NCBI GenBank assembly: GCA_039680605.1
Contig: JBDKTA010000022.1
Location: 248,001 to 312,000, forward strand
Origin: Planctomycetaceae bacterium
GTDB taxonomy: Bacteria > Planctomycetota > Phycisphaerae > SM23-33
Direction of reading: 5' to 3'
Length of the DNA stretch: 64,000 bases
Shown: positions 22,408 to 29,354 of the stretch, in pieces
Numbering within the stretch: position 1 is the first letter of the stretch
Layout: each line of letters starts with the position of its first letter
The notes under the pieces: model-generated
What the model saw: the letters and a program-made list of their open reading frames with translations, nothing else
Databases searched by the model: none
What the model was told of the DNA's origin: nothing
Program-made: the position numbers and the translations under genes

Positions 22408-24372
22408 TTACGGCATCTCGCACACGTCCCCGTCGCAAAAGCGGGACTCGAGCTCCTCCTCGTGTTCCAGGTCGCCCTGCAGCGGGCGCAGGCCGCTGAC
22501 GATGCGCTGGTACTGCTGGCGGGTGATCTGTTCGTATGGAGGCTGCTGGTATCCGTGCCCGCGCGAGGGCAGGAACACGACAGCCTTGAGGCGGTCTTCG
22601 TACGCCCGCAGCAGGTCCGGCAAAAGGCCGCCCTCGCGATCAGGGTCGAACTCGGCGGTGACGCTGACCTGGTTGTCCGACCAGAACCGCTGCATCTGCG
22701 CGGCCAGATCAATCTTTTCCTGCAGGGGCACGTCGCTCTTGCAGCGGCCTAGTCGCTCGACGTGTACCGGAAACGACACCACCACGGTGTTCTGCGAATA
22801 CGCGTCGTCTTCAACGTGATAGCCGCTGCGGCGGCACATCTCCACCAGCGGGTGCCCCATCGTCACGCGAACGCGGCGGATGTAATAGGGCGCGTGCTCC
22901 CAGTGAACTCCCGGCGTGGCGCCGGCCAAAAGGCTAACCGTGCCCGAGGGCTTGACCGACGTGAGCTTGATCGACCGGGGCACCGCAAGGGCAGCCGAAT
23001 GCTCCTCGTCCAGCCGCCGCAGAAACGCATACGCCCGGTCGCACCAGCGGAAGAACTCCTCGTGGCCGAACTTGTCGAGGGCCTGCACGATCCCCGTCAT
23101 CGAGCAGCCCAGGCGGCGGTTTCGCAGCATGACGGCGTTGGTGAGAGCGTCTTCGGTCTCGACCAGCGTGACGGCTTTGGCGTACTTGTACGCCACCGCC
23201 AGCGTGCGCTGGTAGTCCTCGAAGTTTTCGTGATGGGCCGGAAACGTCTCGACCAGGCAGCACAGTTCGCGGTCCCACAGCGTCTGCTCGACGCAGGGGT
23301 TTGAGCCTTCGGCCTGCTCATCGAGCCAGTTGGGCTCGTCGCCCATGCGCCCGTAGGCGCGGGCATTTTCGAGCCACAGGTATCCCGGTTCGCCGGTGGC
23401 GGCGGTTCGCCGCACTGCCGCCGAGTAGTCCATGCCCGCCCGGGCGAAGATCGAGTTGTTCGACGCCCAGCGATACTCGAGGACCTTGGTGCGGTCCTGC
23501 TTAAGGTCCAGAAACTGCTCGTCGTCGGCCTCGCCGAAGGCGATCTGCGCTGAGCGGCGGATTCCGCCGGCGACCACGCAGCGTCCGATGAGATTCATCG
23601 CGTCGACGATCAGCCGCGAGTCGATAGCCCGCCCGACGTAGGAGTCCAGCAGCGTCTTCATGTCCTCGAGCATCCGCGACAGGGGGCCGGGCCCGCTGGC
23701 GAATCCGCCGAAGCTGCGCAAGGCTGACCCGTGCGGGCGGATCTGCGAGAAATCCCAGCCCGCCGGCAGCGCCGCCTTGCCCACGTACGCGTTGAGCAGC
23801 CGTTCGATAGCGCCGGCCCAGCCCTCGCGACTGTCGCCGATGACGTGTACCTCCTGGCTCGTCCGCGGCGGATGGAGGGTCACCTGCCCGCGTCCCCGCG
23901 TATCAAACCCCACGCCGACGCCGAGCATCGACATCTGGAGCATCCACAGAAACGGCCCGGCGAAGTCCGTCGCGAGATCTTTAGTCGAGACGAACCCGCA
24001 GTTATTCAGCGCCGCGCCGCCGCGCTCGTAGACGAACGGCGTGCCCATGATCCACAGCCCGCGCCCCGGCGGGGTCCACTTGAACGCCCACAGGCGCTCG
24101 TACGCCTCGTGCGCCTCGTGCAGCGCGCGGGCAGGGTCCCACGCCAGGCCCGCCCGCAGGCAGTGGGCCCGCTGGACGCTGAACATGCCTTCGATGACGC
24201 GGCGGCACGTCTGCCACCAGCTCTCGCCCCCGCGGCTGTACGTCCGCTTGTACGTCGCCCATGACAGCGGTCCAAACCCCCACCGCACCGCCCGGGCAGC
24301 GTACGCCCGGCAGAACTCCTCATCCAAGCGGAAGAGGCCGTGCTTGTCGATGTCCAGGATCACAGAGATCAC
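22408..24372 (-). CDS. nrdJ: Adenosylcobalamin-dependent ribonucleoside-triphosphate reductase (class II)
   Basis: 654 residues, monomeric class II type like the Lactobacillus leichmannii enzyme. It makes deoxyribonucleotides with a B12-generated thiyl radical. The active site reads SNPCVEQ, with the radical Cys and the Glu two residues on. Substrate-reducing cysteines lie in LNNCGFV and in the following DRELCCLVE. The C-terminal tail C-D-G-D-V-C keeps the C-x4-C redox pair. The start codon is probably GTG at 24372 (or GTG at 24363); no ATG is available. No cobalamin riboswitch was recognised upstream. Class II enzymes need no oxygen, so the host can make DNA precursors with or without it. 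Confidence 0.93.
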   Translation of the reverse strand: MISVILDIDKHGLFRLDEEFCRAYAARAVRWGFGPLSWATYKRTYSRGGESWWQTCRRVIEGMFSVQRAHCLRAGLAWDPARALHEAHEAYERLWAFKWTPPGRGLWIMGTPFVYERGGAALNNCGFVSTKDLATDFAGPFLWMLQMSMLGVGVGFDTRGRGQVTLHPPRTSQEVHVIGDSREGWAGAIERLLNAYVGKAALPAGWDFSQIRPHGSALRSFGGFASGPGPLSRMLEDMKTLLDSYVGRAIDSRLIVDAMNLIGRCVVAGGIRRSAQIAFGEADDEQFLDLKQDRTKVLEYRWASNNSIFARAGMDYSAAVRRTAATGEPGYLWLENARAYGRMGDEPNWLDEQAEGSNPCVEQTLWDRELCCLVETFPAHHENFEDYQRTLAVAYKYAKAVTLVETEDALTNAVMLRNRRLGCSMTGIVQALDKFGHEEFFRWCDRAYAFLRRLDEEHSAALAVPRSIKLTSVKPSGTVSLLAGATPGVHWEHAPYYIRRVRVTMGHPLVEMCRRSGYHVEDDAYSQNTVVVSFPVHVERLGRCKSDVPLQEKIDLAAQMQRFWSDNQVSVTAEFDPDREGGLLPDLLRAYEDRLKAVVFLPSRGHGYQQPPYEQITRQQYQRIVSGLRPLQGDLEHEEELESRFCDGDVCEMP

Positions 24373-24619: not shown

Positions 24620-26686
24620 TCAGGTTGCACCACGGCGAAATCGCCGCAGCAGCGCAATGCCGCAGGCGGCGAAAACGGCCAGGGCGCCGGGCTCGGGGAC
24701 AACCTGCACACTGCCGCCGGCATAGAGCGATGTGAGATCCCAACGGAGCCCTGCCTCCAACGTCGGCAACAGGATCGTCTCAAAAGACCCGCTGGTATTG
24801 CCTCTGAAAAGATCGAAGCGATTGCCGAAATCGGGCCTGAAACCATAGATCAACTCCACGTCCAGAACCCCGCCCAAAACCAGGTGGTCGCCGATAACGA
24901 GTTGATCGTACTGAAGACCCGGCGTCAGACCCGACAATTCCATCGTCAACACATTGTCGCTGTCCAACGTTGCGCTATCCAGATGAACGGCCGCCGGGCT
25001 GTTGCCCGGCGAGAATCCGCCCGAGAAAAGCACCTCGCCGGAATAGGAGCCTCGCCCGCTGACCAGCCCCGTAAGGCACAGCGGCGATTCCTCGCTTTGA
25101 GCCCGAATGACGCCTTGGTTGACCACCCTGCCGTCCAAGGTTCCCATTGCCGTCAATAATCGCCCCTCTTCGACCCGGGTGACGCCATCAGCCGCCGGCG
25201 GGATGTCGGTGATCCCGGGCCCGCCAGATCTGACCGCCAGCTGGGGCGGAGCGGACGCCTGTGTGGATGTCCGCAAAGCCAGGTTCCGTGGCAGGAGCAG
25301 GAACTTCTTGCTGTCGGCGGCAAGTTCATAAGCCCGTCGGGGGTAATCGCCGTCGGTCACAGCAGCAATCACCGGTCGCTGTTGGCTGATGGTTTGTTTA
25401 TACCTGCCGCCGGCGATCGCGGTGTGTTGTCCCGTCCAATTCTGGAGCGATTCACGCGAAAGCCTGATTCTTGATGAGGCGCGCCCGGCCTCGGTCGTCG
25501 GGCGCAGGGCAAACGGCGTCGACGGGAGCTGTTCCGAAGAATCGCCGGATGCGTCCCTGAGTTGCATTGACTCATCCGCCGGTGTACCGCCCATCGCGAG
25601 GGCGTCTTGGCCCTTGGGTTCGTCATCCCACCCGGCGCGCGAAGCTCGGCGCGATGCCGGAGGCGTTGCAGAGGCCCCGGCCGATGCCGCGGTCTGCTGC
25701 GACAGCGACGGCCTGTTCGGACGGGCGGCGTCCCGATTACCGGCAACTGGAGACAAACGTGCGGTTGGCGAAGACTGGCCGGCGCGGCCAACCGGTGGCG
25801 TCGCGCCCACAGGCTGGAGGACCTGCTGTCGCGGGATCAACGGCGGCAGGCGATGCGCCGCGGCATCCTGCAGGGGGTCCCTCGCGGCCAAGGCGATGAA
25901 ACCATCGCCCCCCTGCCGTGCGGCAGAGACCCCGGGAGCTTCAAGCGGCGGTTGCAGCCGGGGCGTCTCGACGACGCTATAGGTCGTCAAGGCTGCAAGG
26001 ACCAGGCCCGCCGCAACGGCGGTCTTGGACACGGTCACGCTGCCACCGCCAACTCCGGCGGGGATGGCTGCGGGGGCAGACAATGCAGAGGTGTTGGAAA
26101 CCGCCGCGGTCACGAAACGCTTGAGCTGCAACATCATCGCGCCCAGCAGGGACACGACCACCCCCTTGGCGGTCAGCTCCCGGCGAAGCGAGGCGACGAT
26201 CCTTCCGATTCGCTTGGCCACGCCCTGCTGGGTCATGCCCAGCGATGCCCCGATCGACTGCTGCGTCATGTCGTTGACCAGATTGTCCAGAAGCAATTGC
26301 CGATCCTGTGGGGAAAGCCTCTGCAGGCACTGCGCCAGGATGGCGAAGGACTCCTTGCGTTCGGCCTCCCCATCGCCGCACGAGAACGGTTCCTGCCGCC
26401 CCTTCTCGCGTTCGCGATAGGTGCGACTCCTGCGCGATCGGATCATCGAGGCGGTCACATTGAGGCAGCACCGATGCAGCCAGCGGCTGAGGCTGGTATC
26501 GATTCGCCCGGCATTGTGCACCATCGCCAGCAAGACCTGCTGCATGGCATCTTCGGCATCGGCGGTGGAACCGAGGCGCCGATAGCACGTCGCCAGCACC
26601 ACGTTCTGGTACTTGCCGACGAGGGAGGATATGGCTTGGCGATCTCCCTCAACGGCATAGCGGTGGAGCAGGTGTAAGTCGTCCAT
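24620..26686 (-). CDS. ECF sigma factor fused to a transmembrane and PEP-CTERM surface domain
   Basis: 688 residues from the ATG at 26686 (GAGGA about 8 bases upstream). Residues 8-90 are sigma region 2 (STADAEDAMQQVLLAMV). Residues 120-172 are region 4 (LSPQDRQLLLDNL, then the helix-turn-helix TQQSIGASLGMTQQGVAKRI). A membrane helix lies at about 219-238. A long Pro/Ser/Arg-rich extracytoplasmic linker runs to about 500. Then follows a beta-rich domain with the FSPGNSPA and GLQYDQLVIGDHLVLGGVL signatures typical of planctomycete PEP-CTERM proteins. The tail is VPEP, hydrophobic core, RRFRR. The topology is consistent: sigma inside, surface domain outside. It probably couples a surface state to transcription, perhaps of the divergent PEP-CTERM genes (inference). 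Confidence 0.9.
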   Translation of the reverse strand: MDDLHLLHRYAVEGDRQAISSLVGKYQNVVLATCYRRLGSTADAEDAMQQVLLAMVHNAGRIDTSLSRWLHRCCLNVTASMIRSRRSRTYREREKGRQEPFSCGDGEAERKESFAILAQCLQRLSPQDRQLLLDNLVNDMTQQSIGASLGMTQQGVAKRIGRIVASLRRELTAKGVVVSLLGAMMLQLKRFVTAAVSNTSALSAPAAIPAGVGGGSVTVSKTAVAAGLVLAALTTYSVVETPRLQPPLEAPGVSAARQGGDGFIALAARDPLQDAAAHRLPPLIPRQQVLQPVGATPPVGRAGQSSPTARLSPVAGNRDAARPNRPSLSQQTAASAGASATPPASRRASRAGWDDEPKGQDALAMGGTPADESMQLRDASGDSSEQLPSTPFALRPTTEAGRASSRIRLSRESLQNWTGQHTAIAGGRYKQTISQQRPVIAAVTDGDYPRRAYELAADSKKFLLLPRNLALRTSTQASAPPQLAVRSGGPGITDIPPAADGVTRVEEGRLLTAMGTLDGRVVNQGVIRAQSEESPLCLTGLVSGRGSYSGEVLFSGGFSPGNSPAAVHLDSATLDSDNVLTMELSGLTPGLQYDQLVIGDHLVLGGVLDVELIYGFRPDFGNRFDLFRGNTSGSFETILLPTLEAGLRWDLTSLYAGGSVQVVPEPGALAVFAACGIALLRRFRRGAT

Positions 26687-26701: not shown

Positions 26702-27043
26702 GCCATAATTCTATCCTCAATGTCGAATTCCGCCAAGCCCCTTTCTTGGTATAAATGCTTTGTCTTTGCAGGCTTGCGGCACTTGGGTGTAATTAAGTTA
26801 AGTCGCTTCCGGGCGGCGTTTCACAACCAGAAAATAAGATCATTCTTTGGAAATTTCAACGCCGGATTTCCCGCCTCGATTTTTTCAAATGGCGGTTGTG
26901 CCCGACGCCCGTGCGGCGACTCATCAACGGTCGCGAGACTTTCCCTGGATGTAGACTCGCTTCGTCCGGCGGTCGCCCAGGGATGCGTCGAATGTTGGTG
27001 TTCGGCGTCCACAAATTCTTAGATAGCGGCCAGGAGGTATACG
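26702..27043. other. Divergent intergenic region between sigma factor and PEP-CTERM genes
   Basis: 342 bp without a gene, clearly more AT-rich than the neighbours. It contains the sigma-gene promoter (26708-26736), a small palindrome CCAAG-N7-CTTGG at about 26733-26749 followed by TATAAAT, and the GGAGG ribosome site of the next gene. A convincing + strand promoter was not identified. Confidence 0.5.
26708..26736 (-). promoter_or_regulatory. Probable promoter of the sigma/PEP-CTERM fusion gene
   Basis: On the minus strand, TTGGCG (26731-26736), a 17-bp spacer and TAGAAT (26708-26713). Transcription would start near 26701, giving a leader of about 15 nt that contains the GAGGA ribosome site. 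This resembles a housekeeping sigma-70 promoter. Confidence 0.55.
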
Positions 27044-27754
27044 ATGATCAATCTGAAAGTGGCGGCGGTTGCGATGTTGCTCTGTGGGCTGTTGGTCGCC
27101 GGGGGAGCCTCGGCGGCGATTACCGTTTACAGCACGTATATGGACTTCCAGGGGATCGACCCGGATCCCTCCTTTGACTTGGACGGCAGCCCCATCGTCT
27201 TCACGCAGACCACGGCGTCCTACCTGTCAGTCAGCACGACGGATTCTTCGCGCTGGTTCTTCGCGGGGCAGCAGTCCTACACGTCCGACTATACCAGCGA
27301 CTGGACGGATTCCACCTGGTTCGAGAAGACCAATTCCGAAAGCTACATGAACGTCGACAAGGCGGTGGTCAACAGCACCGGCAGCAGTTTCAGCGGCTAC
27401 ACGATCACCCTGCACGTGGCGACGCTGGTAGCTGATAGTCTGACCATCAACGGAGCGTCCTTCGACGCCACGATCAGCACTGTCACCGATTCCTACGGCG
27501 ACGTCACCACGACGATCTCGATCCTGTTCGACACGCCCATCGCGTCGGGCGAGTCGTTCGACCTGTCCTATATCCTGGACCTGAACGGGGTCGTGACACC
27601 GCCGCCGGATGACGGCACGTACGGCATCGACGAGGGCGGCACGCTGTCCGACACGGTGAGCGTCGATGAGGTCGCCGAGGCGCCCGAACCGGCCACCTTG
27701 ACGCTGCTTGGTCTGGGTGCCGCGGCTTTGTTCGCCCGTCGGCGGCGTGTCTGA
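27044..27754 (+). CDS. PEP-CTERM sorting domain protein
   Basis: 236 residues. It has a signal peptide of about 24 residues (VAAVAMLLCGLLVAGGASA), a Ser/Thr/Asp-rich beta-type middle without a recognised domain, and a C-terminal sorting signal: APEPATLTLLGLGAAALF then ARRRR. Such tails are recognised by exosortase systems and deliver the protein to the outer surface or matrix. AGGAGG stands 7 bases before the ATG. It is the first of three consecutive PEP-CTERM genes on this strand, 30 bp before the next, and divergent from the sigma/PEP-CTERM fusion. Confidence 0.9.
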   Translation: MINLKVAAVAMLLCGLLVAGGASAAITVYSTYMDFQGIDPDPSFDLDGSPIVFTQTTASYLSVSTTDSSRWFFAGQQSYTSDYTSDWTDSTWFEKTNSESYMNVDKAVVNSTGSSFSGYTITLHVATLVADSLTINGASFDATISTVTDSYGDVTTTISILFDTPIASGESFDLSYILDLNGVVTPPPDDGTYGIDEGGTLSDTVSVDEVAEAPEPATLTLLGLGAAALFARRRRV

Positions 27755-27783: not shown

Positions 27784-28392
27784 ATGAAGTGGTCTGCTGG
27801 AGCGATAATAATGCTATTCGTCCCGATGCTCTGGGCGGAGCCGTCTCATGCTGCCGGCATGTTCAGTTCGGTAGGCCACGCGATCGGAACCTGGGACCCG
27901 GATCATCCCGGTTACGTTCTGGTCGGCGGCGAATCCCGCCCCGTCACGCTGCTGGGATTCTGGGAATACGACCCGTCCGACATTCGACGGAGCGTCTTCT
28001 GGGCGCTGAATGACATCTCGGGCTGGGGCTGGGGCCGGGGCGGTGGAAGCGGAACGGGGGGGTGGGGAGGAGGCGCATTCGGCGACCAAGAATACCGGCC
28101 TTGGGAGGAGCTTCCGGCACGATCGTCGTATTCACAACCGTCGTACTATATTGAAGAAAACCCTGCGATCAACCACAGCTACTTCGATATCGAAGAGGCT
28201 CCGCAAGTCACTGCCGACAGCTTCGGGATTGAAGAATTTCCCCAACCCGGCGGCATCTCGGACGGGTTTGGCCTCGACGAATCACCACTGGCGGCGGATC
28301 AAACCGTGACCACCGCCGTCCCCGAGCCCTCGGCATTCGCGCTGGCTCTGGCAAGCGTCGCGGCCTTCATACGCCGCAGGAGGAAAGCATGA
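27784..28392 (+). CDS. PEP-CTERM sorting domain protein, Gly/Trp-rich
   Basis: 202 residues. A signal peptide (to about residue 23, ending SHA) is followed by a small domain, a Gly/Trp-rich stretch (WGWGRGGGSGTGGWGGG near residue 82-98), acidic repeats of the form IEE-x-P (YYIEENP, FDIEEAP, FGIEEFP, FGLDESP) and the tail VPEPSAFALALASVAAF with RRRRK. The repeats at roughly 18-residue spacing suggest an extended surface peptide. GGAGG precedes the ATG. It overlaps the protease gene by 4 bp (ATGA), so the two are co-translated. Confidence 0.88.
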   Translation: MKWSAGAIIMLFVPMLWAEPSHAAGMFSSVGHAIGTWDPDHPGYVLVGGESRPVTLLGFWEYDPSDIRRSVFWALNDISGWGWGRGGGSGTGGWGGGAFGDQEYRPWEELPARSSYSQPSYYIEENPAINHSYFDIEEAPQVTADSFGIEEFPQPGGISDGFGLDESPLAADQTVTTAVPEPSAFALALASVAAFIRRRRKA

Positions 28393-29354
28393 GACGCACA
28401 GACGATGCGGACCGGAGATTTCATGCCCCCGCGAGGCCGTGGCACGCCGCCACGGCTGTCATCGCCGCGGCGAGCATATGCCTGTTCGTGGCCCAGCCGC
28501 AAGCGATGGCAATGGTCGTCCGCGGCGGCGACGGCAGCGGCAATACCACGACGCCCGTCGATGATCCCGGGTGGGCAAACGTGGGGCTTTGCGGCAGCGG
28601 GACGGCCGTGTACCTGGGCAACGGCTGGGTGATTACCGCCTCCCACGTCGGGGCCAACAGCGTCACGTTCGGCTCGACGACTTACACCGTCGCCAGTGGC
28701 ACCTACCAGCGGCTGCACGATCCATCCAGTTCCAGCACCCTGGCGGACCTGTGCGTCTTCCAACTCAGCACGATTCCGACGGGCTTGACCAGTGTGACCA
28801 TCGGCGACTCATCACCCGTCTTGGGTTCGATGGTCACCGCCATCGGTTACGGGCGCAATCGCGCGACGTCTGCAACCAGCTGGTACGTGGACATCGACAC
28901 GAATCCGTACACCTGGAGCGAGACGCCCTTCTCGGGGTACGACGCACAGGCCGGCGGATTCAAGACGACCTCCACTCGCACCAAACGCTGGGGCGAAAAC
29001 GCCATCAGCGGCAGCGAGACCCTCAGCGGCAGCTACGGCACGACACGCATGCTCAAAACGACGTTTGACGCGTCCGGCAGCGCCAACGAATTCCAGGGGA
29101 TCGCCGGCGATTCGGGCGGCGCCCTCTTCTGGAAGAACGGGAGCGATTGGGAATTGGCGGGCATCGTGCTCTCTGTGGGAACGTTTTCCGGACAGCCGGG
29201 CAGTACCGCCGTCTACGGTAACGTGACCTATATGGCCGACCTGGCGCTCTACCGGGACCAGATTCTCGCGATTACTGCCGTTCCCGAACCGGCCACATTG
29301 ACGCTGCTGGCAACTGCGGCCGCCGCGATTCTGCTCAGACGCCATCGCCGTTGA
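28389..29354 (+). CDS. Trypsin-like serine protease with PEP-CTERM tail
   Basis: 321 residues. An N-terminal hydrophobic signal (about 19-41) follows a long basic start. The chymotrypsin-fold triad is visible: His in GWVITASHVG, Asp in LADLCVF, Ser in GDSGGALFW. The C-terminus is VPEPATLTLLATAAAAILL followed by RRHRR, a PEP-CTERM sorting signal. It is a secreted or surface protease anchored until exosortase processing. It is the third gene of the PEP-CTERM cluster and translationally coupled to the gene before it. It could act on the neighbouring surface proteins, including the exported part of the sigma fusion (speculative). Confidence 0.9.
   Translation: MRRTDDADRRFHAPARPWHAATAVIAAASICLFVAQPQAMAMVVRGGDGSGNTTTPVDDPGWANVGLCGSGTAVYLGNGWVITASHVGANSVTFGSTTYTVASGTYQRLHDPSSSSTLADLCVFQLSTIPTGLTSVTIGDSSPVLGSMVTAIGYGRNRATSATSWYVDIDTNPYTWSETPFSGYDAQAGGFKTTSTRTKRWGENAISGSETLSGSYGTTRMLKTTFDASGSANEFQGIAGDSGGALFWKNGSDWELAGIVLSVGTFSGQPGSTAVYGNVTYMADLALYRDQILAITAVPEPATLTLLATAAAAILLRRHRR

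Follow-up and report, generated by a model that had tools for sequence, protein, structure and literature searches.

ECF sigma factors with C-terminal membrane extensions are known, namely in groups ECF48, ECF52, ECF53 and ECF243 (PMC8999054). Release of such a sigma factor by proteolysis has been tested in IutY and proposed for SCO4117 (PMC8999054), and what these membrane-extended proteins sense is largely untested in the literature examined. The regulation of exosortase-dependent surface proteins has a literature of its own: among the papers examined it is described only for Proteobacteria, where PEP-CTERM genes are governed by separate sigma-54 circuits (PMC1569441). Here we describe an ECF sigma factor that ends in a PEP-CTERM sorting tail. 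Membrane extension of ECF sigma factors is already known; the sorting tail is what appears to be new. Our literature search returned no paper on a PEP-CTERM-tailed sigma factor; the main ECF classification papers lay outside its scope, and an earlier mention is possible.

The gene lies in a window of 64,000 nucleotides, the whole stretch of DNA analysed, from a Planctomycetaceae bacterium. Table 1 collects its features and those of its surroundings. The frame runs from an ATG at 26686 to a stop at 24620, 688 codons plus the stop, and an ORF check finds no stop inside it, in keeping with a first-pass annotation that had read one unbroken frame from sigma domain to tail. GC at third codon positions is 0.67-0.83 throughout, linker included. 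The sigma regions 2 and 4 named in that annotation are also recovered: Sigma70_r2 (PF04542) scores 37 bits against a cut-off of 24 (E=3e-9), Sigma70_r4_2 scores 25.5 bits against a cut-off of 25.7 (1e-5), and the NCBIfam sigma70-ECF model TIGR02937 covers residues 18-171 at 1.4e-18. A profile of the protein matches the solved ECF sigma factors CnrH, SigW and SigE. By its predicted domain content, the 688-aa protein is of the ECF sigma-70 type, with regions 2 and 4 and without region 3. No zinc-finger (ZAS-like) anti-sigma domain matched in Pfam up to E=1. A scan of genome contigs with the 688-aa protein returned distant ECF sigma factors only. The next gene downstream on the same strand (22408-24372, minus) reads, from its sequence, like a ribonucleotide reductase.

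Table 1. Positions of the features discussed; plain coordinates refer to the window, prefixed ones to other loci.
Feature	Position	Strand	Basis
PEP-CTERM-tailed ECF sigma factor gene	24620..26686	-	open frame; sigma and PEP-CTERM models; full-length G031 relative
Sigma region 2, residues 22-87	26426..26623	-	Pfam PF04542
Sigma region 4, residues 116-168	26183..26341	-	Pfam PF08281 1e-5, PF04545 5.7e-5
Hydrophobic helix right behind sigma domain, residues 176-194, K/R inside	26105..26161	-	hydropathy, conservation
Proposed membrane anchor, residues 218-236	25979..26035	-	hydropathy in all four clade members
Low-complexity linker, residues 237-505	25172..25978	-	Pro/Ala/Ser/Gly/Thr-rich; unalignable among the four members
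Outer domain, residues 506-660, judged beta-rich from sequence	24707..25171	-	common to G031 and ordinary PEP-CTERM proteins
PEP-CTERM tail, VPEP-hydrophobic-RR, residues 663-688	24623..24700	-	motif in all four members; sub-cut-off scores
Bipartite DNA element GGTTGTGAA-N16-ACTTAAC	26797..26828	-	between sigma gene and divergent operon; same in G031
Gene A, PEP-CTERM surface protein, divergent from sigma gene	27044..27754	+	PEP-CTERM 28.9 bits
Gene B, small PEP-CTERM protein, FGIEE-like repeats	27784..28392	+	PEP-CTERM 21.1 bits
Trypsin-like (S1) serine protease with PEP-CTERM tail	28389..29354	+	Trypsin 1.5e-10, PEP-CTERM 25.3 bits
Long ECF ORFs of the phylum with other C-terminal parts	L042:5072-8827, L039:7125-10079, L310:229-3828, L299:244-2634		

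Close relatives were sought with a profile built on the first 245 residues. It finds exactly four members, in the source genome and in genomes G031, G005 and G035. Their scores are 388-435 bits, against 151 for the next relatives. G031 and G005 belong to the same family as the source genome, and G035 to another family of the same order. Within the order, 4 of 38 genomes carry the clade, and it was seen nowhere else in overlapping samples of 397 genomes from the class and 392 from the phylum. The first impression that the architecture is unusual is supported. The G031 relative, from a different genus, is 689 aa long in one frame, with 53% identity in the sigma domain and 59% in the outer domain and tail. 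In the G005 and G035 proteins the sigma domain, the helix and the PEP tail are kept, and the outer part is another one, rich in proline and alanine. Across four genomes of two families, the protein is conserved at its two ends, and the middle has diverged. A stop or frameshift between the sigma and surface domains, named as the refuting case in the first-pass annotation, is countered by the 689-aa protein, and a frameshift or chimera is ruled out by this full-length relative in another genus. The fusion is confirmed, at the level of sequence, as real and no sequencing artefact. Three cysteines of the sigma domain, C34, C73 and C120 (26686 to about 26325), are invariant in all four members; a redox or metal role is possible.

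The outer domain had been likened to those of exported PEP-CTERM proteins, and this likeness is substantiated. The C-terminal 177 aa are 50% identical to the end of an RCC1-repeat PEP-CTERM protein of genome G033 that has a signal-peptide-like start, and the outer domain has further matches among ordinary PEP-CTERM proteins of the same family. A search of solved structures with the C-terminal domain returned nothing significant. The tail sequence, VPEPGALAVFAACGIALLRRFRRGAT, carries the motif of an exosortase-substrate C-terminus (PEP, hydrophobic stretch, basic end), and the motif is kept in the four members. The earlier description of this tail as complete holds for the motif and falls short in the models: over residues 663-685 the Pfam PEP-CTERM model reaches 14.7 bits, below its cut-off of 20.7, and TIGR02595 reaches 14.9, below 16. 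Since the call is sub-threshold on the 688-aa protein alone, it is carried by the relatives. In the G005 relative a single protein exceeds the Pfam cut-offs for both PEP-CTERM (22.7 bits) and Sigma70_r2 (47.5 bits), and TIGR02595 is passed by seven of ten tails tested (G031, G005, L087, L164, L044, L195 and L210).

Tails of this kind recur on ECF sigma factors. Among the relatives retrieved, 13 of 122 complete sigma ORFs end in one; the set was chosen by similarity, and the ratio is not an unbiased frequency. Shuffling of the last 45 residues (300 rounds, maximum 2 tailed) gives an expectation of 0.08, and none of 1458 internal stretches passes the same tail test; a chance tail is ruled out by these two controls. 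Besides the clade of four, nine more PEP-CTERM-tailed ECF sigma factors are found in the class. On a tree of 136 sigma domains (quick FastTree), the tail trait needs six changes, at least four of them forced by well supported branches; the clade of four is uniformly tailed (support 99), and a group in family f8 has the tail in four of its five members. About 20 complete membrane-extended ECF proteins from the phylum's other classes lack the tail, as do the majority of those in the same lineages. On the evidence of the tree, the PEP-CTERM-tailed ECF sigma factor is a recurrent design, gained several times.

The wider set is diverse. Genome G162 encodes three different PEP-CTERM-tailed ECF sigma factors (L168, L172 and L183), and in genome G006 alone the membrane-extended ECF profile hits 19 times. 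In further long ECF ORFs from the phylum, the sigma domain is fused to FGE-sulfatase, to LRR plus AhpC/TSA-like, to CarboxypepD_reg repeats or to WD40 repeats.

The least secure element of the 688-aa architecture is its membrane helix. The first-pass annotation had placed one transmembrane helix after the sigma domain and called the topology coherent, with the sigma domain inside and the surface domain outside. Hydrophobic helices are indeed present, at residues 176-194 and 218-236; the anchor is borderline, and the second helix makes the topology less certain than claimed. Helix 218-236 is moderately hydrophobic (best Kyte-Doolittle window 1.55; Wimley-White octanol sum borderline), its hydropathy is the weakest among the four clade members, and its flanking charges leave the direction unsettled. 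Helix 176-194 may be a membrane-surface helix, a sigma-contact helix or a second membrane helix. There is no N-terminal signal peptide: the N-terminus is the sigma domain, and the only hydrophobic helices are internal. AlphaFold2 run on the single sequence gave a mean pLDDT of 49 for residues 1-250 and 32 for the C-terminal 192 aa, neither confident. The membrane topology is only weakly predicted.

The neighbourhood of the gene is conserved in part; this and the recurrence of the class go beyond what had been noticed at first. Genes A, B and the protease gene form a tight cluster in which all three tails score above the cut-off, with a 4-base overlap between gene B and the protease gene. In G031 the gene order is unchanged and the cluster is again divergent from a PEP-tailed sigma gene; the A protein is 50% identical, and a relative of B and a PEP-CTERM protease of trypsin-like type complete the set. 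G005 encodes a protease of that type, likewise with a PEP-CTERM tail, directly downstream of its sigma gene. Such a protease adjoins the sigma gene in three of the four clade genomes, and two gene arrangements are represented. Identity between the G031 and G005 proteases is 39%, and the protease at 28389..29354 is more distant from both, which makes the association of kinds firmer than orthology. The G035 sigma locus has none of the A, B and protease neighbours. Five genomes of the family without a PEP-tailed sigma factor also carry the A and B pair (L257, L258, L259, L260 and L261), with A about 50% identical and FGIEE-like repeats in B, so the pair does not depend on the sigma factor everywhere. 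In the fetched flanks of PEP-tailed ECF genes outside the clade, relatives of A, B or the 28389..29354 protease were absent except for one short match (L239). No anti-sigma model matches the Pfam-scanned neighbours A, B and protease. The G005 protease (L035:922-2430) has a dockerin-like match ahead of its PEP tail (Pfam 6.6e-4, below cut-off).

The region that separates the sigma gene from the divergent operon contains the bipartite element GGTTGTGAA-N16-ACTTAAC, which has identical spacing in the source genome and in G031 within surrounding sequence that has diverged. Allowing up to two mismatches, this is its single site in each of these two genomes, and none is found in the G005 genome. On the sigma strand, a match to a sigma-70-like promoter sits immediately upstream of the element. 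The element may be either a promoter used by the 688-aa sigma factor or an operator for another regulator, and it speaks for local control. The rest of about 380 kb of source-genome sequence, with many other PEP-CTERM genes, lacks it; a genome-wide PEP-CTERM regulon is unsupported, as no copy was seen ahead of other PEP-CTERM genes.

The sorting machinery is present in the source genome, which has two exosortases (PF09721, 195.7 and 172.9 bits) and 75 PEP-CTERM matches. An exosortase was found in 65 of 66 genomes, the exception being G031, which is only 72% complete; the count is uninformative as a control. One source-genome exosortase has an adjacent sigma gene, which encodes a sigma-70 factor without the sigma-helix-PEP-tail architecture. 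One of the two (L211:9014-10663), at 549 aa, has room for an additional C-terminal domain; the ORF behind it (L211:10575-15227), of 1550 aa, reads like a TPR-repeat protein.

From the intact fusion, its conservation, the common neighbourhood and the locus-specific DNA element, all of them observed, we tentatively propose a reading that we hold to be somewhat short of probable: a single protein that serves as a membrane-held, surface-sensing sigma factor, is released by proteolysis and controls the adjacent PEP-CTERM operon. The sigma domain would be cytoplasmic and helix 218-236, approximately, would be the anchor. The linker and outer domain would be on the far side of the inner membrane, made an exosortase substrate there by the PEP-CTERM tail. 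Tethering would withhold the sigma domain from its promoters until the outer part is proteolysed and the domain is freed by a further cut within the membrane or close to it; the neighbouring PEP-CTERM-tailed trypsin-like protease is the likely candidate for the first cut. The freed sigma domain would then act on its own divergent promoter region, such that A, B, protease and sigma factor are made together.

The first-pass annotation had suggested that sorting or cleavage of the outer part could control sigma activity; proteolysis and local control are made plausible by the neighbouring protease and by the locus-specific element. Release by proteolysis is also favoured by the occurrence of the fusion in four genomes, the repeated gain of the tail at a level far above chance, the two exosortases and 75 PEP-CTERM matches, the lack of an anti-sigma match in the neighbours, and the precedent of IutY and SCO4117. 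Against it stand the weak anchor helix and the second helix, which could place the outer part inside; topology is the weakest link of the mechanism. The sub-cut-off tail, the G035 locus without these neighbours, the A and B pair without a PEP-tailed sigma factor in five genomes, the distance of the protease from its counterparts and the low confidence of the structure predictions also count against it.

It is improbable, in our estimate, that the exosortase cut is itself the signal, with tail processing deciding between further cleavage and protection of the membrane stub. Sigma activity would then report whether the surface-sorting system works. The ends of the protein are kept in G005 and G035 and the outer part is replaced or lost, as if the tail mattered and not the outer domain, and the repeated gain of the tail trait fits as well. 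Such a sensor needs no neighbouring protease, yet one is seen in three genomes, and the tail would be dispensable for the general mechanism, since it is missing from most ECF sigma factors with membrane extensions in the same lineages.

We give a similarly low chance to a passive module for anchoring or display. Here the sigma factor would be active while tethered, or regulated solely by how strongly it is expressed; the outer part would do a separate job at the surface after processing. Domain shuffling may have joined the two, as the outer domain and tail occur in ordinary PEP-CTERM proteins of the family, and the outer part varies among the four members. Conservation of the fusion across genera and its repeated gain nevertheless speak against a neutral accident, and the membrane-extended ECF sigma factors that have been tested are inhibited by their extension (PMC8999054).

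A hairpin of the two hydrophobic helices that leaves the outer part cytoplasmic, with the tail as a further membrane helix and no exosortase substrate, draws on the borderline helix scores and on the two post-sigma hydrophobic peaks in 29 of 121 longer relatives, but we consider it very unlikely given the single peak in 83 of the 121, the mostly extracytoplasmic domains of related ECF sigma factors (FGE-sulfatase, CarboxypepD_reg; one carries WD40 repeats), a tail motif far above chance, and an outer domain that matches proteins with signal-peptide-like starts.

A broader reading, which we regard as rather doubtful, is exosortase-coupled transcription: an ECF class gained several times in this lineage, whose own sorting tail would make its activity depend on the PEP-CTERM/exosortase pathway, with PEP-CTERM proteases as partners. 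A sorting-tagged sigma factor joins surface sorting and transcription in one protein, and this link is directly testable. Gene expression may be coupled directly to a system for surface sorting.

Among described systems, ECF48, ECF52 and ECF53 of Actinobacteria are ECF sigma factors with a C-terminal extension that contains one or more membrane helices (PMC8999054); the 688-aa protein resembles them in having such an extension, in which the hydrophobic helices are borderline. In the ECF52 member SCO4117 the extension includes a proline-rich region together with a carbohydrate-binding domain on the outside, and its proteolytic activation has been proposed (PMC8999054). For these groups a zinc-finger anti-sigma-like domain is described and a sorting tail is not, whereas the 688-aa protein has no zinc-finger match and has a PEP-CTERM tail. 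IutY (ECF243) of Pseudomonas putida likewise combines a sigma factor and a membrane-bound regulator in a single protein; it differs in its siderophore surface-signalling and its cleavage by Prc and RseP (PMC8999054), and in having neither a PEP-CTERM tail nor such neighbours. Other membrane-extended ECF sigma factors of the phylum share the sigma type, the helix region and a large C-terminal part, and most are without the tail. With the PEP-CTERM/exosortase substrates (Haft et al. 2006, PMC1569441), the 688-aa protein shares the PEP motif, the hydrophobic helix, the basic end, the outer domain and the presence of exosortases in the genome. The usual substrates begin with an N-terminal signal peptide; the 688-aa protein begins with a sigma domain, and an internal helix is its only candidate export signal.
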